Below the pieces are notes generated by a model, which was not told the DNA's origin, did not search any database, and saw only the letters and a list, made by a program, of their open reading frames with translations. Positions 17,131-39,233 of a stretch of DNA of 64,000 nucleotides are shown here, one piece after another; within the stretch, counting starts at the first letter, position 1, and each line of letters begins with the position of its first letter. Both the position numbers and the translations under genes were made by a program. The DNA comes from Spirochaeta thermophila DSM 6578 (lineage in GTDB: Bacteria > Spirochaetota > Spirochaetia > Winmispirales > Winmispiraceae): positions 2,356,001-2,420,000 of the forward strand of contig NC_017583.1 in assembly GCF_000184345.1 (NCBI RefSeq). Direction: 5' to 3'.

Positions 17131-17206
<76 letters not shown>

Positions 17207-17217
17207 CTTGAGTCGAG

Positions 17218-17246
17218 ATGATAGCACAATCTCCACGCTATGGCAA
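17218..17246 (-). promoter_or_regulatory. Promoter of tRNA-Val
   Basis: On the minus strand TTGCCA (17246-17241), 17-base spacer, TATCAT (17223-17218) with TGC in front (extended -10). The target duplication of ISNCY copy 1 begins at the next base, 17247, so the element stopped exactly at the upstream edge of this promoter. Confidence 0.7.
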
Positions 17247-17333
17247 GCCCTTCGTCCTCCTTGTGTCAAGACTCGATAAAAATGTCACCCTTTTTAACTC
17301 AGTTAAAATGTCACCCCCTGGGTAGTATTCTCT

Positions 17334-18467
17334 TCATCCTGCCCGCTGTTTGGTGCGCCGTGCAGGAGTTACCCGCTCATACTTCAACTCCCTATTCTCA
17401 TGGAACAGGGAGATCGTTTCATCCAGGTATTTTCGAACCAGGACCTTCTGTTTCGGCCGAGGAAGGAAGCCTTTGTCGTTCTTGATCTGCAGCACCTGCC
17501 TCTCATAGTAGATTGTGTAATCCTTTTGTACGACTCGATTCGCTTCAAAGCAAAAGATCTCTTTCAGCTTCGTTTCTTTGGTACATCGCACATGCACGTC
17601 CTGCGAGTCTTCCGCTTCTACCGCAAAGCGTTCGTTGAACTGAGGCAGGAACGTCTCCCACAAGTACCGGTTCGCCTCCTCGATCGTACAAATCCCCGCA
17701 AGACGCAGTTCCTTCACCAACCGATCCTGCAGAATCCCGTTCCGCCGTTCCACCCGCCCTTTCGCTTGCGGCGAATACGCACTCACGATCTGTACCCCCA
17801 GTTTGTCGCACGCCCGCTCGAATGCGGTTTTCGGCTCTTTGCCCGCCAACTGTTCCTCCAGCGTCGGTTCCCGCAGCGTCTTGTAGCCGTTTTTCAAGTC
17901 ACAGTACAGACTCATCGGGATCCCATACTGCTCCACCCAGCCCCACAGCAGCTGCATCGCCGCAGCGCTCGTCTCCTGTTCACTGAACCGCGCATACGTG
18001 ATCCCCGTCGCATCATCCACCATCACCATCAAGCAACAGGCACTGCGCCGTCCTTCAAACCAATCATGCGGGGACCCGTCAAACTGAACCAGCTCCCCAA
18101 AACAGGCCCGCCGTTTCCTCCGGCTTCGGTACGGCTTCCTCCTCTTCTTCCTCGCCCAGATTCCTTCCTCCAGCAGCCACCTGCGTAGCGTCTCGTGATC
18201 CACCTCAAGACCTTCCTTCGCCAACTGCTCGCTCGCAAACGTCGACCCAAAATCCCCGTACCTCTCCCGATACCTACTCACCACCCTCTGCCGAAACTCC
18301 TCCTCCTTCCGATTCCCCGACGGTTTGCCTCGGTTCCCATGCCGCAATCCCGCGATCCCCCCTTCCCGGAGCCTCTTCTCCCACCGCTGCACCTGCCGTT
18401 TGCTCACCCCTAAGATCTGCGCTACCTGCTCGTTCGTCAGACCTTGGCTTTCCATCTTCCCCAACAC
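17334..18467 (-). pseudogene. ISNCY transposase, start region cut off by IS3
   Basis: The 377 residues from the internal Met at 18467 match the copy at 35004-36176 apart from two substitutions I can see (S for P in FGSTF, K for N in VVQKDY). The IS3 element sits between codon 5 and the rest of the gene, so the normal start and its upstream signal are 1.3 kb away. It has an N-terminal helix-turn-helix region (VAQILGVSKRQVQRWEKR) and an integrase-like core with VQFDGSPHDWFEGR, YCDLKNGY and GRVERRNG as likely DDE positions. Expression would require a new start, so it is probably silent. Confidence 0.85.
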
Positions 18468-18491
18468 TTCCGCTCGTTTTAATTCCTTTAG

Positions 18492-19779
18492 TGTACTGCG
18501 CCCATTAAGTCAAGACAAAAAGGGTAGGGAGAAATGGTAGTACCGAAAGGGGTCATGCGACCTCCTCTCCTTGCATCTGCGCCCAAAGGGCCTCATATTC
18601 CTCGGGGCTCCTGTACCCTAGCGCACTGTGGACATAGTGCCGGTTGTACTCCTCCGCCCATCCCCTCACCGCCTCCTCCAGCTCCCCCACGTGCTCCCAC
18701 TCCCGCAGCCACAACAGCTCCTCCTTCATCGTCCGTATCATCCGCTCCGTGTCCGCATTCCCCTTCGGATTGTTGTAGCTCGTGAACACCTGTTCGATCC
18801 CCAATACCTCCATCGCCTTCATGAACGACCGGCTCAACGGTTGGCTCCCGTTGTCACTCACCAGCCGAAGCCCTCTCCCCCTCACCCCCTCGGGAAACTC
18901 CCGCTCCACCGCCATCTCCATCGCCGCACGCCACTCCTCACTCCTCCCCCTCACCGACACCTTCCACCCCACCAGCTTCTTCGTGTACCAGTCAAGTACG
19001 ATCACGAGATAGACCCATCCTATCCCTTTCACCAGCACCTTCGTCATGTCGATCCCCCACCACTCCCTCGGTCTCCTCGCCACCGGCTTCCCTCGCCCAC
19101 TCCCACGTCTCGCTTTCTTCTTCTCCCGTCTACACATAAGCCCCGCACCCTTCATAAGTCCTCTCACCCGCTTCTCGCTCACCTCCTCCCCCTCCCGCCT
19201 CCTCAACCACCACGCCACCCGCCTGTACCCCCAGTACGGATGCTCCCCCACAAGATCCCTGATCTTCTCCATAAGCCGCCCATCGTCCCTCTCCTTCTCC
19301 TCCCGCTTCTTCCCCACCTTCTGCCCCCTTTTCCTCCTCGCATAGTACCGGCTCCGACTCACGCCAAGTGCCTCACACGCATCCTTCACCCGGTACCCTT
19401 CCCCCACCAGCCGCTCCACTGCCTCTACCTCCCCAACAGCTCCTTCGTTTTTTAGTATCTCGATCTGGATCGCCTGCTTCGCTATGATCTTCTCAAGCTG
19501 CTCTATCTTCGCTCGATAGGTGTCCTTCTCCTTCCTGCCGTCTGCAAGGGCTCTCGTGCCCCCTTCCAGAAACCTGTCCCGCCATCGGTAGTACATCGTC
19601 TGGCTGATCTGGTGTTCCCGGCAGATCTCGGCGATCTGCCGTTCGCCTCGGAGTCCTTCCAGGACGATCGCAAGTTTCTCTTCAGTGGTCCATGTCCGCT
19701 TCTTCATCTGCGTCCTCCTCCCTTATTCCAGTCTTACCTCTACCATTTCTCCGTGTCCACTCCTACGGGACGCAGTATA
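18492..19779 (-). mobile_element. IS3-family insertion sequence inside ISNCY copy 1
   Basis: A 1288-bp element with ends TGTACTGCGCCC and (inverted) TATACTGCGTCCC, flanked by a 4-bp target duplication TTAG (18488-18491 and 19780-19783). The uninterrupted target is seen in ISNCY copy 2. It carries one transposase reading frame. Confidence 0.92.
18553..19707 (-). CDS. IS3-family transposase, single fused reading frame
   Basis: A 384-residue protein that joins the two parts usually coded as OrfA and OrfB. The N-terminal helix-turn-helix (WTTEEKLAIVLEGL ... SQTMYYRWRDRF) and leucine-rich coiled coil (EQLEKIIAKQAIQIEILK) correspond to OrfA. The integrase domain has WWGIDMTKV (first Asp), LVSDNGSQ (second Asp) and NPKGNADTERMIRTMKEE (Glu). 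Most IS3 elements need a -1 frameshift to make this fusion; here it is in frame throughout. GGGAGGAGG precedes the ATG at 19707. The frame is intact and probably active. Confidence 0.92.
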   Translation of the reverse strand: MKKRTWTTEEKLAIVLEGLRGERQIAEICREHQISQTMYYRWRDRFLEGGTRALADGRKEKDTYRAKIEQLEKIIAKQAIQIEILKNEGAVGEVEAVERLVGEGYRVKDACEALGVSRSRYYARRKRGQKVGKKREEKERDDGRLMEKIRDLVGEHPYWGYRRVAWWLRRREGEEVSEKRVRGLMKGAGLMCRREKKKARRGSGRGKPVARRPREWWGIDMTKVLVKGIGWVYLVIVLDWYTKKLVGWKVSVRGRSEEWRAAMEMAVEREFPEGVRGRGLRLVSDNGSQPLSRSFMKAMEVLGIEQVFTSYNNPKGNADTERMIRTMKEELLWLREWEHVGELEEAVRGWAEEYNRHYVHSALGYRSPEEYEALWAQMQGEEVA

Positions 19780-20030
19780 TTAGACTCATCTCGATCATCC
19801 CCCCATTCTCTCAGGGGGTGACATTTTTATCGAGTCCTAGGGGTGACATTATTACTGAGTTTCAACAGCCCTTCGTCCTCCTTGGCGAAACCCTCTCGAG
19901 AACGAAACGCCCGCACCACCCACACTCATACCCCCACGGGACTGTAACATCGAGTGTTGAAAAAGGCGGGGAAAAAAGATAAGGGGTATCTCCCACCAAC
20001 ACACACTTACAGCTAAGGAGGAGATACCCC
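19708..20030. other. Non-coding junction of three IS ends
   Basis: No gene here. It holds the right end of the IS3 element (to 19779) with its TTAG repeat, the right end of ISNCY copy 1 (to 19867) with its 17-bp repeat (to 19884), 44 bases of old chromosomal sequence, the 9-bp repeat TACCCCCAC (19929-19937), and the left end of the IS256 element with the ribosome site AAGGAGG for its first reading frame. Confidence 0.85.
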
Positions 20031-20387
20031 ATGACACATGTACCTGCGACACACTCTACCCTTTCTCGCCTGATGAGGCAAGTGGAAGACCAGGTACGGG
20101 AGCACGTCCTCCAGACGTACAAGAGCTACCTGGAGCGCCTCCTTGAGGCACTCAGAGATGCGGTAGTGGGAAGAGACCGATATGCCAGAGGAGGTCCTGA
20201 GGACGTCTCCTACTACCGGTACGGCTACAGGAAGTGGAAGACCGTGCAGGTCCCATGGGGAACCCTTACTGAGGTACGCGTGCCGCGTATCCGTACCAGC
20301 TGCGGGAAAGAGGTGAGGCTGGTGACCTATGAGCACAGGCTCAAGGCCCTCACCGAGGAACTTCTGCTTGGGTATGTGGAGGGATGA
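20031..20387 (+). CDS. IS256-family transposase, N-terminal part
   Basis: 118 residues matching the DNA-binding N-terminal region of Mutator/IS256 transposases, with SYYRYGYRKWKTVQVPWGTLTEVRVPRIR. AAGGAGG lies 9 bases upstream. It stops at the TGA of an ATGA overlap, exactly where the C-terminal part starts one frame over. In other members one protein of about 400 residues covers both parts. Either one G has been lost from a GGG run near 20381, or the element uses stop-restart or -1 frameshifting. Alone this part lacks all catalytic residues. Confidence 0.85.
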   Translation: MTHVPATHSTLSRLMRQVEDQVREHVLQTYKSYLERLLEALRDAVVGRDRYARGGPEDVSYYRYGYRKWKTVQVPWGTLTEVRVPRIRTSCGKEVRLVTYEHRLKALTEELLLGYVEG

Positions 20388-21259
20388 GTGCGCGGACGTG
20401 GACCATTCTCTTACGGGAGCTGGGGATAGGAGAGGCTCACCCGCAGACCCTGCTGAGGCTCATCAGACGTCTTCGCGAAGAGAAAGAGCGGTGGCGGAAG
20501 CGGCCCCTCAGCGGGGTGAAGGCCCTTGTGCTGGATGGGGTATGGGCCAAGAGGCGGGGGAGCGATCAGAAGAAGCTGGTGGTCTTAAGTGCCGTGGGGG
20601 TGAAGGAGGACGGGACACACGAGCTGCTTGACTGGATCGTTGCAGCGCGTGAGGACCGAGCGAGCTACGAGCGACTCCTTACCGGGCTCTACGAGCGGGG
20701 GCTTGAGGAGGTGGAGCTGGTGGTGGCCGATGAGGCAGAAGGCATCTGGCAGGCGGTGGAGACCGTGTATCCCGAGGCGAAAAAGCAGATATGTCTGTGG
20801 CACCTGCAGCGGACGCTTGAACAGAAGCTCCTGCAGGATATGGGGGAACGGAAGGGGAAGAACGCAGACCTCCAGAAGGAGAGGCGAGCTTTTCGAGCGG
20901 AGTACTGGAAGCTCTTTGAGGCAGGAGGGAAGGAGGAGGCAGAGGGTGCGTGTGAGGCATTCGTGAAGAAGTGGGCGCCGAAGGCTCCCCGGATGACGGC
21001 CGCCCTCCTGTGGCGGAAGGAGCGGCTCTTCTCCTATCTGGAGTTACCCTATGCGTGGAAGAAGAAGGTGAGGACGAGCAACCTTGCGGAGAACCTGGTT
21101 CGGCACATGAGGAGCTTTCTGCGACGGTATCCCGGGTATATGAGTCTTGCCCATGCGGATGAGGTGGTAGGCCTCTACGTGGTGGGCATGCAGGTGATAC
21201 AAGAGGTGGGGAGACGCACCCCTTATCAGCTCCAGCGTAATTTCAACACTCCCCCTTGA
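20384..21259 (+). CDS. IS256-family transposase, catalytic part
   Basis: 291 residues with the DDE core of IS256 transposases: first Asp in ALVLDGVWAK, second in LVVADEAEG, Cys/His motif ICLWHLQRTLEQK, and Glu in TSNLAENLVRHMRSF. Its ATG overlaps the stop of the N-terminal part (ATGA), so translation could couple, or the full protein could form by frameshift. The break is the only defect I see in the element. Confidence 0.85.
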   Translation: MSARTWTILLRELGIGEAHPQTLLRLIRRLREEKERWRKRPLSGVKALVLDGVWAKRRGSDQKKLVVLSAVGVKEDGTHELLDWIVAAREDRASYERLLTGLYERGLEEVELVVADEAEGIWQAVETVYPEAKKQICLWHLQRTLEQKLLQDMGERKGKNADLQKERRAFRAEYWKLFEAGGKEEAEGACEAFVKKWAPKAPRMTAALLWRKERLFSYLELPYAWKKKVRTSNLAENLVRHMRSFLRRYPGYMSLAHADEVVGLYVVGMQVIQEVGRRTPYQLQRNFNTPP

Positions 21260-22816: not shown

Positions 22817-24004
22817 ATGATGAATCCTTCCGTGATCATACGAAGCTCCAGACTCGACTCGATCCGCAGGCGCCACCCCTGGGTCTTCTCCGGCGCGATC
22901 GCACGAACCGAAGGAGCCCCTACACCCGGCGACATCGTCACCCTCCGCAGTGAGGAAGGGCATTACCTCGGCATCGGCACCTACGAAGGCGGGAACATCG
23001 CGGTACGCATCCTCTCCTTCGACGAGGAGGAGATCGACGCATCGTTCTGGCACCGCCGCCTCGAGGCCGCCTTCGCCAGACGCCGCGCCCTCGGGCTCAC
23101 CGACTCCCCGGAGACTACCGCCTACCGACTCGTACACGGCGGAGGCGACGACATCCCCGGCCTCATCCTCGACTACTACGACGGTGTGGTGGTATTCCAG
23201 ACCCACTCCATAGGGGTGCACCGGCACCGGGAATCCATCGTGGAGGCCCTGCAGACCCTCTACGGGCACCACCTCAAGGCCGTCTACGACAAGAGCAGGG
23301 CCACCCTCCCCCCCTCCTACGAGATGGAGAACGGCTACCTCTACCGGAACGGGGAGCTCTCCCTCCCCTGGGGGATCCGTGAGCACGGGCTCCGCTTCCT
23401 GGTGGACTGGGAAGAGGGGCAGAAGACCGGCTTCTACCTCGACCAGAGGGACAACCGCGCCCTCGTGGCACGGCTCGCCGAAGGAAGACGCGTGCTCAAC
23501 GGTTTCTCCTACACAGGAGGCTTCACCCTCAACGCCCTCGCTGGGGGAGCGGCCCACGTCACCTCGGTGGACCGATCGGACAAGGCCCTCACACTCCTCG
23601 AACGCAACCTCGCGCTCAACGACCTCCCCTCCGAACGCCATACCTCGATCTGCGAGGAGGTGCTCCCCTACCTCAAGGAACACGGCCACGAGTACGACCT
23701 CATCATCCTCGATCCCCCCGCCTTCGCGAAACACGTACAGCACCGGCACAAGGCCATCATCGCCTACAAACACCTCAACAAACACGCCCTCAGGACCGTC
23801 AGACCCGGGGGGATCGTGATCACCTTTTCCTGCAGCCAGGTGGTCGAACTCCCCCACTTCGTGGGCGCAGTGCGCGCCGCAGCCATCGACGTGGGCCGCA
23901 GAGTTACCATCATCGGTACCCTCCACCAGCCGCCCGACCACCCGGTCAACATCTACCAACCCGAGAGCGAGTACCTCAAGGGACTGGTCCTCTACGTGGA
24001 ATAG
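22817..24004 (+). CDS. rlmI: RlmI-like 23S rRNA (cytosine-5) methyltransferase
   Basis: A 395-residue COG1092-type SAM methyltransferase. The N-terminal PUA-like region (about 1-80, with HPWVFSGAI and GDIVTLRSEEG) binds RNA. A middle linker is followed by a Rossmann-fold domain with VLNGFSYTGGFTLNALAGGA (SAM site), DPPAFAKH (motif IV) and TFSCSQ with the expected catalytic Cys. It probably methylates large-subunit rRNA; target base and position are inferred only from family. It stands alone between the NtrC regulator and the leucine attenuator. The start is placed at the first ATG of ATGATG, seven bases after a TATACT box. Confidence 0.88.
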   Translation: MMNPSVIIRSSRLDSIRRRHPWVFSGAIARTEGAPTPGDIVTLRSEEGHYLGIGTYEGGNIAVRILSFDEEEIDASFWHRRLEAAFARRRALGLTDSPETTAYRLVHGGGDDIPGLILDYYDGVVVFQTHSIGVHRHRESIVEALQTLYGHHLKAVYDKSRATLPPSYEMENGYLYRNGELSLPWGIREHGLRFLVDWEEGQKTGFYLDQRDNRALVARLAEGRRVLNGFSYTGGFTLNALAGGAAHVTSVDRSDKALTLLERNLALNDLPSERHTSICEEVLPYLKEHGHEYDLIILDPPAFAKHVQHRHKAIIAYKHLNKHALRTVRPGGIVITFSCSQVVELPHFVGAVRAAAIDVGRRVTIIGTLHQPPDHPVNIYQPESEYLKGLVLYVE

Positions 24005-24048
24005 GTTGGAATGCGACCGAGATAGGAATCAGCACATTCGGCCAGGGG

Positions 24049-24076
24049 TTGACATTTCCTCGGAATGGGGTACATT
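24049..24076 (+). promoter_or_regulatory. Promoter of the leucine leader and leuA
   Basis: Consensus TTGACA (24049-24054), 16-base spacer, TACATT (24071-24076). Transcription should start close to 24083, the first base of the leader-peptide ATG, so the leader peptide would be translated from a leaderless RNA. Confidence 0.75.
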
Positions 24077-24082
24077 AGTCGT

Positions 24083-24178
24083 ATGATGAACTCTGGACTC
24101 TCGCGGATCCTCGGCCTCCTCCTTAGCCTTCTCCTCCTTCTCGGCACCCGCGGTGCAGGGGGCCTGGAACCCGCGTGA
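24083..24178 (+). CDS. leuL: Leucine-rich leader peptide of leuA attenuator
   Basis: A 31-residue peptide starting MMNSG with 11 leucines, most of them in two runs (LGLLL and LLLLL) at positions 10-20. The leucine codons are CTC, CTT and CTG. The stop lies 19 bases before an intrinsic terminator that precedes leuA by 28 bases. Leucine starvation would stall the ribosome on the Leu runs and free the antiterminator segment. It could be mistaken for a signal peptide, but the tail is only 11 residues, with no mature protein. It has no ribosome site; start ATGATG lies 6 bases after the -10 box. Confidence 0.85.
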   Translation: MMNSGLSRILGLLLSLLLLLGTRGAGGLEPA

Positions 24179-24230
24179 GGATACGGGGTTCGGGAAGGCC
24201 CGCTGCACCGGAAGGTGCGGCGGGCTTTTT
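24152..24230 (+). promoter_or_regulatory. Leucine transcription attenuator (alternative RNA hairpins)
   Basis: Terminator: arms 24198-24209 and 24214-24225 form a 12-bp stem with one G-U pair and loop GGAA, followed by TTTTT (24226-24230). Competing antiterminator: 24152-24164 (GGTGCAGGGGGCC) pairs with 24197-24209 (GGCCCGCTGCACC) in 7 plus 5 bp with one mismatch, removing the 5' arm of the terminator. A pause hairpin GAACCC/GGGTTC (24167-24192) lies between. The leader stop codon (24176-24178) sits inside the pause hairpin, so a ribosome that finishes the peptide would cover part of this region and permit termination. Confidence 0.85.
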
Positions 24231-24258
24231 CATTATACCACACTCAAAGGAGATGGAT

Positions 24259-25920
24259 ATGAAGAACGCACACAAGTACCGACCATTCCCCTTCCGGGTC
24301 TCTCTCCCCGACAGGACGTGGCCCGACAAGCAGATCACCGCTCCACCTGCATGGTGCAGCGTGGATCTCCGCGACGGCAACCAGGCCCTCCCTGTCCCCA
24401 TGAACGTGGACCAGAAACTCGAGTTCTTCAAGCTCCTCTGTGACACGGGGTTCAAGGAGATCGAGGTCGGCTTCCCCTCCGCCTCACAGATAGAGTACGA
24501 CTTCACCCGTCAGCTCATAGAGGAGCATCTCATCCCCGACGATGTGTACATCCAGGTCCTCACCCAGGCACGCCCACACCTCATCGACCGCACCGTGGAG
24601 GCCGTGCAGGGGGCGAAGAAGGTCATCCTCCACATGTATGTGGCCACGTCGGTGATGCACAGGACCATCGTCTTCAAACGCTCCAAGGAAGAGGTGAAGA
24701 AGATCGCGGTGGACGGCACCCTCTACATGAAGTCCCTCCTCCCCCGCCTCTCGGGAACCGAGGTGGTGTACGAGTTCTCTCCGGAAGCCTTCAACATGAC
24801 CGAGCCAGAGTTCGCCCTGGAGGTGTGTGAGGCCGTGGTGGAGGCATGGAACCCGAAAGAGGTGGGAGGCAAGGTTATCCTCAACCTCCCCGCCACGGTG
24901 GAAGGCTCCACGCCCAATGTGTACGCCGACCAGATCGAGTGGTTCTGCCGGAATTTCTCGAGGCGGGACGAGGTGATCATCAGCGTACACACCCACAACG
25001 ACCGTGACACCGGTGTCGCTGCCACCGAGCTCGCCCTGCTGGCCGGTGCCGAACGGGTGGAAGGAACGCTCTTCGGTAACGGCGAGCGAACCGGAAACCT
25101 CGACATCGTGGCGGTCGCCCTCAACATGTATGCGGAGGGAGTGGATCCGGGCCTCGACCTCTCGGACCTGCCGCGGATCAGGAGTGTGTACGAGCGCTGT
25201 ACCGGCATGACCATCCATCCAAGGCACCCATACGCCGGTGACCTCGTCTTCACCGCCTTCTCCGGTTCGCACCAGGACGCCATCAAGAAGGCCATGGACC
25301 TCCTCAAGACCGAGAAGAAGGACTACTGGGAAGTCCCCTACCTCCCCATCGACCCCATGGACATAGGCCGCAGTTACAAGGCCATCATCCGCATCAACAG
25401 CCAGAGCGGAAAGGGTGGGGTCTCCTACATCCTCCAGGAGGAGTTCGGCCTCGAGATCCCCAAGGGTATGCACCCCGAGGTGGGGAAAAAGGTGAACGAG
25501 GTCTCGGACGCCCTCGTGCGGGAGCTCTCGCCTCAGGAGGTCTACGAGGTCTTCGAGAAGCACTTCCTCAATCTCTCCGATCCATACGACCTGGTATCCT
25601 ACAAGATCGAGACCGAGGGGAAGACCGTGCACGTCACCGCCCGGGTGAAGGAACACGGCGAGGAGAAGGTGCTCACAGGCACCGGAAACGGCCCCATCGA
25701 CGCCTTCGTCCATGCGATGAAGGGCCAGGGGTGGAACGATTTCGAGATCACCGACTATCACGAACAGGCACTCGGCAAGGGTTCGGACACCGAGGCGGTG
25801 GCCTATATCCGGATCACGAGGGATGGACGGGACTACTGGGGGGCCGGCCGACACACCGACACCATCGCCGCGAGCATTCACGCCCTCCTGAGCGCCTACA
25901 ACAGAGTGTACACGAAGTGA
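24259..25920 (+). CDS. leuA: 2-isopropylmalate synthase
   Basis: A 553-residue enzyme that condenses acetyl-CoA with 2-oxoisovalerate, the first committed step of leucine synthesis. I chose ATG 24259 over 24253 because AAAGGAG then has a normal 6-base spacing. The HMGL-like barrel has DLRDGNQAL (catalytic Arg and metal Asp) near residue 40 and the metal motif HTHNDRDTG near 240. The C-terminal LeuA dimer domain (about 420-553) normally binds leucine for feedback inhibition. It belongs to the longer class typical of yeast-like and actinobacterial LeuA. Expression is under the attenuator just upstream. leuCD lie 12 kb away. Confidence 0.95.
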   Translation: MKNAHKYRPFPFRVSLPDRTWPDKQITAPPAWCSVDLRDGNQALPVPMNVDQKLEFFKLLCDTGFKEIEVGFPSASQIEYDFTRQLIEEHLIPDDVYIQVLTQARPHLIDRTVEAVQGAKKVILHMYVATSVMHRTIVFKRSKEEVKKIAVDGTLYMKSLLPRLSGTEVVYEFSPEAFNMTEPEFALEVCEAVVEAWNPKEVGGKVILNLPATVEGSTPNVYADQIEWFCRNFSRRDEVIISVHTHNDRDTGVAATELALLAGAERVEGTLFGNGERTGNLDIVAVALNMYAEGVDPGLDLSDLPRIRSVYERCTGMTIHPRHPYAGDLVFTAFSGSHQDAIKKAMDLLKTEKKDYWEVPYLPIDPMDIGRSYKAIIRINSQSGKGGVSYILQEEFGLEIPKGMHPEVGKKVNEVSDALVRELSPQEVYEVFEKHFLNLSDPYDLVSYKIETEGKTVHVTARVKEHGEEKVLTGTGNGPIDAFVHAMKGQGWNDFEITDYHEQALGKGSDTEAVAYIRITRDGRDYWGAGRHTDTIAASIHALLSAYNRVYTK

Positions 25921-37946: not shown

Positions 37947-39233
37947 TCATCCCTCCCTGAAGAGCGGTGAATTGGTGATGTACCCTGCGATCGCCGTGGC
38001 CGCAGCGGTGGCGGGACTCATGAGGTGGACCATTCCCCCCTTCCCCATCCTCCCGTTGAAGTTCCGGTTGGTGGTGGAAGCGCACACCTCGCCCGGTGCG
38101 AGCACCCCGTTGCTCATCCCGAGACAGGCCCCGCACGTGGGATTCGTCACACAGAAGCCCGCCTCCATGAATATCTCGAGGAGGCCTTCCTTGAACGCCT
38201 GGGCATAGGCCCCCGGGCTCGCAGGAGAGACGATGCCACGCACATGGTCGGCGATCTTCTTTCCTTCCAAGATCTGGGCTGCGATACGAAGGTCCTCTAT
38301 CCGACCGTTGGTGCAGCTCCCGATGTAGACCTGATCCACCCTGGTGCCTTCCATTTCACGTACCGGCTTCACGAGGTCGGGCTTGTACCCGTACGTGACG
38401 AGGGGTTCGAGGTCGGAGACATCGTGTACGATCACCTCCTCGTACTTGGCATCCTCGTCCGGCCGCCACCGCTCGAAGTCCTCGAGGGCGGCCTCCTTGT
38501 TCGGGTACTCGTCCTCGATGAACGGCCAGAGGTATTCCACCGTCACCATGTCGGGGTAGCAGATCCCGGAAGTGGCCCCCGCCTCCACGGCCATGTTGCA
38601 GAGCGTCATCCGGCTCTCCATGGAGAAGTGCTCCACCACCGGACCGGAGAACTCGATCACACGGTCGGTGGCCCCGTTCACCCCGAGCCTGTGGATGATG
38701 GAGAGGATCACATCCTTCGCGAAGACACCGGGTTTAAGCGTCCCGATGATCTCGACCTTTATGGTACGCGGCCTCTTGAAGGCGCATACCCCCTTCAGGA
38801 TCCCCACCTCGAGGTCGGTGGTTCCCACACCGGCGGCAAAGGCTCCGAAGGCACCGTGCGTACAGGTGTGGGAATCGCCCATGATCACCGTGAATCCGGG
38901 ACGGACGAATCCCCGCTCCGGGAAGAGGGCGTGACACACCCCGTTTCTCCCTATGTCGAAGAACTCGATCCCATGCCTCCGGGACCATTCCCTCAGGATC
39001 TTTCCCTGGATCGCGGTCTTCGAATCCTTCGCCGGGGTGACGTGGTCGATCACGGCCTTGATCTTCGAGGCATCAAAGACCCGGTCCTTGCCCCGCGCCA
39101 CGAGGTCGTTGATCGCGATGGGTGTGGTGATCTCGTGGCAGAAGACCCTGTCGAGGGAGAGGACATGGACTCCCTCATAGGGTTCCTCCACCAGATGGGC
39201 GTCGAAGATCTTCTCTGCAACGGTCTTTCCCAT
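37947..39233 (-). CDS. leuC: 3-isopropylmalate dehydratase, large subunit
   Basis: A 428-residue aconitase-family subunit carrying the 4Fe-4S cluster. Cys ligands appear in YIGSCTNGR (about 303) and in NPTCGACLGMSNG (about 362-373). MGDSHTCTHG near 120 is the substrate loop. Length and motifs fit the LeuC2 class; homoaconitase cannot be fully excluded but neighbouring leuD and a leuA elsewhere support leucine synthesis. GGAGAGG precedes the ATG. A TATAGT with extended TGA lies at 39278-39273 on the minus strand as a possible -10. Unlike leuA, no Leu-rich leader precedes it. Confidence 0.93.
   Translation of the reverse strand: MGKTVAEKIFDAHLVEEPYEGVHVLSLDRVFCHEITTPIAINDLVARGKDRVFDASKIKAVIDHVTPAKDSKTAIQGKILREWSRRHGIEFFDIGRNGVCHALFPERGFVRPGFTVIMGDSHTCTHGAFGAFAAGVGTTDLEVGILKGVCAFKRPRTIKVEIIGTLKPGVFAKDVILSIIHRLGVNGATDRVIEFSGPVVEHFSMESRMTLCNMAVEAGATSGICYPDMVTVEYLWPFIEDEYPNKEAALEDFERWRPDEDAKYEEVIVHDVSDLEPLVTYGYKPDLVKPVREMEGTRVDQVYIGSCTNGRIEDLRIAAQILEGKKIADHVRGIVSPASPGAYAQAFKEGLLEIFMEAGFCVTNPTCGACLGMSNGVLAPGEVCASTTNRNFNGRMGKGGMVHLMSPATAAATAIAGYITNSPLFREG

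Follow-up and report, generated by a model that had tools for sequence, protein, structure and literature searches.

Upstream of leuA in Spirochaeta thermophila DSM 6578, a short leucine-rich reading frame and an intrinsic terminator follow each other closely, which raises the question whether this spirochaete controls LeuA, the first committed enzyme of leucine synthesis, by transcription attenuation. In the leuL/leu attenuator of enterobacteria, a Leu-rich leader peptide, an antiterminator and an intrinsic terminator precede leuA in the same way. We analysed a window of 64,000 nucleotides (positions 2356001-2420000 of the 2.56 Mb genome; coordinates below are those of the window) together with related loci, and conclude that the element is, with high probability, a ribosome-mediated leucine transcription attenuator for leuA.

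Anatomy of the leader and its setting

All elements upstream of leuA were found, to the base, where a first-pass annotation had placed them, including a consensus promoter just before the leader (Table 1). This promoter is the sole site recognized in a scan of 23500-24700 (one hit, against 0.3 expected in shuffles). The in-frame ATG at 24065 was rejected as the start codon of the leader: falling within the promoter, it cannot belong to this transcript. The encoded peptide, MMNSGLSRILGLLLSLLLLLGTRGAGGLEPA, had been described as a 31-residue frame with 11 Leu codons in two runs; length and number are borne out, eight Leu codons lying in the runs and three being single. The density reaches eight Leu in ten codons; within its family, the share of shuffles that attain the observed density has a median of 0. 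CUC and CUU make up ten of the 11 Leu codons, with CUU accounting for 27% in the leader versus 5% in neighbouring genes; both codons are presumably read by the same tRNA.

Table 1. Features of the leuA leader region (window coordinates)
Feature	Position	Strand	Details	Evidence or conservation
Sigma-70 type promoter	24049-24076	+	-35 TTGACA (24049-24054), 16-nt spacer, -10 TACATT (24071-24076)	Sequence; same arrangement (17-nt spacer) in most families
leuL, leucine leader peptide gene	24083-24178	+	31 codons; ATG 24083, stop TGA 24176-24178; putative leaderless start 6 nt past the -10 box	
Two control runs of Leu codons	24116-24142	+	3 (24116-24124) + 5 (24128-24142); CUC/CUU	Leu runs kept in relatives
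Possible protector structure	24113-24165	+	Would hide the antiterminator without ribosome; -19.5 kcal/mol	Kept in near relative only, not in the class
Antiterminator segment	24152-24164	+	GGTGCAGGGGGCC; within leader frame, ends 11-12 nt before leader stop codon	
Intrinsic terminator	24198-24230	+	5' arm GCCCGCTGCACC (24198-24209), GGAA loop, 3' arm 24214-24225, U-tract 24226-24230	Folding
leuA, 2-isopropylmalate synthase, long form	24259-25920	+	553 aa; start codon ATG 24259, Shine-Dalgarno AAAGGAGA	TIGR00970 (over cut-off); HMGL-like, IPMS_D2, LeuA_dimer (Pfam/NCBIfam)

Since the next long frames 3' of leuA are on the opposite strand, leuA is probably transcribed alone. No similar leader was seen in the approximately 330 nt upstream of trpE, leuC, ilvD and hisG of the same genome, and the device is therefore confined to leuA among the genes checked. 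Approximately 12 kb from leuA, a frame of the aconitase family (439 aa, 37983-39215, minus strand) is perhaps a second LeuC/homoaconitase-like large subunit; no leader peptide was seen upstream of it. Elsewhere in the window (17131-21259), a tRNA gene adjoins several transposase-like frames, two on the minus and one on the plus strand, forming an insertion-element cluster beside the tRNA.

Alternative hairpins and their covariation

The intrinsic terminator expected between the leader frame and leuA was detected by folding, and a simple scanner did not list it. Its stem (24198-24225) comprises 12 bp and reaches -31.8 kcal/mol counting flanking A-U pairs. The antiterminator segment pairs with the 5' arm of this terminator through 7+4 bp with one mismatch and one extra pair just outside, so that both the position and the base-pair counts first proposed for this 13-base segment were right. 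The fold of the whole leader has an energy of -84 kcal/mol (z = -5.3 vs shuffles). Folding was carried out with and without the leader ribosome, using constrained folds. Without a ribosome, a long structure hides the antiterminator segment and the terminator forms. With the ribosomal A site on any one of the codons in the second Leu run (24128-24140), the antiterminator is predicted to form in the RNA that ends with the 5' arm (-37 to -44 kcal/mol), the 3' arm being not yet made, and with the ribosome on the leader stop codon the terminator is predicted to form. The modelled folds thus follow the classic logic of attenuation.

The comparative set consisted of 99 Spirochaetia regions upstream of long-form leuA, which was found at E ≤ 1e-150 in 121 of 395 Spirochaetia genomes. 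For the covariation test, the pre-terminator region of each locus was paired with its own 5' arm and with the arms of other families; families were taken as statistical units because single-locus shuffle tests ignore relatedness. The duplex with the own arm was stronger by a mean of -3.8 kcal/mol over 17 families (Wilcoxon p = 1e-4). An ungapped score, restricted to the stretch past the Leu run and leaving out f24, favoured the own arm in 13 of 16 families (p = 0.004). These comparisons argue strongly that the pairing is kept by compensatory change, the covariation in the stems that the attenuator reading had called for. The antiterminator/5' arm pairs are GGTGCAG/CTGCACC in the window and GATGCAG/CTGCATC in the sister genus, with one position changed in all three strands (antiterminator G to A, 5' arm C to T, 3' arm G to A); in other families they read GGCCTGGGT/GCCCAGGC (f9) and AGGTAACGGG/CCCGTTGCCT (f6). 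Five families, f24, f27, f34, f40 and f41, show weak antiterminator pairing or none; f24 is the largest family (26 loci, median z -0.8).

A protector helix in which the Leu-codon region pairs with the antiterminator, although strong in the window's genome, was rejected as a feature conserved over the class, as this pairing is no better than swapped pairing (12 families, p = 0.47). Across loci, a median of 16 nt separates the end of the antiterminator from the leader stop, and at most loci the terminator begins 16-30 nt past that stop. Owing to this spacing, a ribosome at the stop can cover the antiterminator but not the terminator, and a protector would therefore not be needed.

Conservation and predicted leaderless start of the leader

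A terminator below -14 kcal/mol precedes leuA at 76 of the 99 loci, in 17 families. At least six Leu in ten codons occur at 63% of these 76 loci versus 2.2% of dinucleotide shuffles (at least five: 80% versus 14%), and Leu-rich leaders are present in nearly all families with a terminator. As had been anticipated, the Leu runs are kept in relatives, down to different families, and the remaining peptide residues change; examples are MIIAVNALLLALLLSLLLSRDAGVLKAVR (sister genus), MKHNLLLSLLLSLLALLLLGTGPVSCSRQGGS, MNGKALKLNLLLSLLLSFKKKEACGAGLHR and VNKAQFLLNLNLLGLLLLWQSGDDVQVSF. The element is absent in several Spirochaetia with a long leuA (most of f26, L018, L045, L046 and L051), and the short-form LeuA loci of other Spirochaetia seen among L023-L031 have no such leader. 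In f24, probably Treponema-like loci such as L157, L164, L185 and L189 carry very short leaderless Leu peptides of 15-20 aa (e.g., MFTLSLLLLTESFSN), short terminators and weak antiterminator pairing; these leaders are perhaps a reduced version of the switch.

Promoter scoring detected TTGACA-17-TAnnnT upstream of the leaders in most families. In 32 of 45 scored promoters, the start codon lies 6-9 nt past the -10 box, including GTG starts in f13 and f18. Leaderless starts are not universal, because the predicted -10 box and the start codon are 10-34 nt apart in the leaders of f9 and in part of those of f29. As transcription normally starts about 6-7 nt past the -10 box, the start codon of the leader would coincide with the 5' end or lie no more than about 3 nt from it. 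In Streptomyces lividans, this distance is 6.3 nt on average (PMC8079986). The conserved spacing of 6-9 nt supports the first-pass proposal that translation of the peptide uses a leaderless mRNA beginning at its ATG, with the actual start site predicted from the sequence. Genome-wide, the pattern TTGAC-N16-19-TAnnnT-N5-9-ATG matches 59 times versus three times in a reversed control, and of 30 matches read (L192-L221), most lead into long frames, among them murA-like, metG-like and leuS-like genes. Consequently, leaderless mRNAs appear to be common in this spirochaete, as a normal mode of initiation. Leaderless initiation has been reported for another spirochaete, Leptospira interrogans (PMC5243855).

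Alternative readings, known systems and meaning

Could the short frame have another role? A small secreted or membrane peptide with a Leu-rich, signal-like sequence and its own terminator, leaving leuA to another promoter, would suit the hydrophobic peptide with its charged flanks and the terminator directly 3' of it. However, the peptide has no match in Pfam or NCBIfam, and in 37 leaders only Leu is kept, making up 65% of all Leu, Ile, Val, Met and Phe. Since the covariation of the antiterminator has no place in this explanation, and the sole promoter-like site found in 23500-24700 is the one before the leader, we consider such a peptide very improbable. Even less can be said for a constitutive, partial terminator which merely sets the basal level of leuA, with the Leu-rich frame and antiterminator arising by chance: terminators occur frequently, and the C-rich DNA has CTC as its main Leu codon (79%), but only 2% of shuffles made from these regions attain the Leu density, the element is kept over families of very different base composition, and matched pairing exceeds swapped pairing.

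A further alternative is an RNA element that acts without leader translation, for instance by binding a protein or ligand in the manner of the actinobacterial LEU element, and leaves the Leu-rich frame a secondary role. In its favour, the leader folds into an extended structure without a ribosome. Further, mutations in the similar-looking leuA leader of Streptomyces coelicolor reportedly did not fit classical attenuation (mutational work cited in PMC1262725). On the other hand, no conserved sequence or aptamer-like core is shared between the spirochaete families, Rfam yielded no hit at the gathering score and, with E up to 10, no relevant one, Leu_leader (RF00512) included, and no T-box match was found upstream of leuA. 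Conserved instead are the Leu codons, the start codon at the predicted 5' end and the antiterminator/terminator switch; thus, this explanation is also highly unlikely. In the LEU element at leuA, Leu codons pair with the Shine-Dalgarno region of leuA in a pseudoknot, and there is no terminator (PMC1262725, PMC8079986); the strong terminator sets the spirochaete leader apart. The S. lividans leaders leuL1 (before leuA) and leuL2 (before leuS) are leaderless and Leu-rich as well (PMC8079986). Whereas leuL2 is followed by a hairpin and U-tract, leuL1 lacks an intrinsic terminator and belongs with the LEU element (PMC8079986); the spirochaete leuA leader has a strong terminator and a covarying antiterminator.

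The reading as a leucine attenuator, proposed for this spirochaete by the first-pass annotation, is supported by the anatomy, the folding energies of the constrained folds, the conserved Leu runs, the covariation and the spacing, from which we infer start site, stalling and leucine response. The proposed switch shares its working principle with the leu, trp and his attenuators. Transcription would start at or beside the leader ATG, and a ribosome would initiate on the leaderless 5' end. A shortage of charged tRNA-Leu would make this ribosome stall in the Leu run, and 24152-24164, left free, would pair with the terminator's 5' arm while the 3' arm is still to be synthesized, such that RNA polymerase reads through into leuA. 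With plentiful leucine, the ribosome would run to the stop at 24176 and cover or disrupt the antiterminator, and the terminator would end transcription.

Compared with the enterobacterial attenuator (RF00512), leader peptide, antiterminator, terminator and the place before leuA are the same, but the spirochaete device has a long-form LeuA, a single gene instead of leuABCD, no class-conserved protector and a putative leaderless start. Leu-rich leaders also precede long-form leuA in Desulfobulbaceae and relatives (L055, L058, L065, L066, L073, L075, L078, L081, L086, L094, L105, L108, L112, L113); their terminator arm reads GCCACGG/GGCCGCGG, and the complementary CCGTGGC/ACTGTGGC lies within the end of the leader. 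They resemble the spirochaete leader in having a Leu run, a segment such as ACTGTGGC in the leader end, a terminator arm (GCCACGGT) and the same gene, but differ in arm sequence, and most seem to have an untranslated leader of at least 25 nt. As the same design with another arm sequence stands before this leuA, the device is either old or moved with the gene. At L074, a Nitrospirae MAG, a Leu-containing leader with its ATG 6 nt past TATAGT and a terminator before leuA form a possible leaderless attenuator outside Spirochaetia.

According to a 2010 survey, leader-peptide systems had been demonstrated only in Proteobacteria and Actinobacteria until its own finding in Firmicutes (PMC2965389). In Staphylococcus aureus, branched-chain synthesis is reported to be under the control of a Leu-rich attenuator peptide (PMC5794164), likewise outside these two groups and in a different phylum from the spirochaete. 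We found no report of a spirochaete attenuator, and the survey of Lopatovskaya et al. (2010; cited in PMC4833913) may hold some cases. As far as the open literature shows, the mechanism is known and the phylum is new, together with a conserved, predicted leaderless start that recurs with the switch across many families of Spirochaetia. It is conceivable, though rather doubtful, that the attenuator is ancestral to Spirochaetia, spread over the whole class, and that its mechanism includes leaderless initiation: a ribosome loading on the 5' AUG upon its emergence from RNA polymerase would synchronise translation and transcription, making a pause or protector hairpin unnecessary, and two alternative hairpins would suffice.

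Leader-peptide attenuation of amino acid synthesis is hereby extended to a phylum for which we found no such report, and many short leuL genes are unannotated. leuA in these bacteria is predicted to respond to leucine supply at the RNA level, and the approximately 76 loci form a comparative set large enough for testing the mechanism. The conserved start spacing of 6-9 nt and the missing conservation of a protector make the leader a good system for asking whether leaderless initiation itself can time the coupling of ribosome and polymerase.
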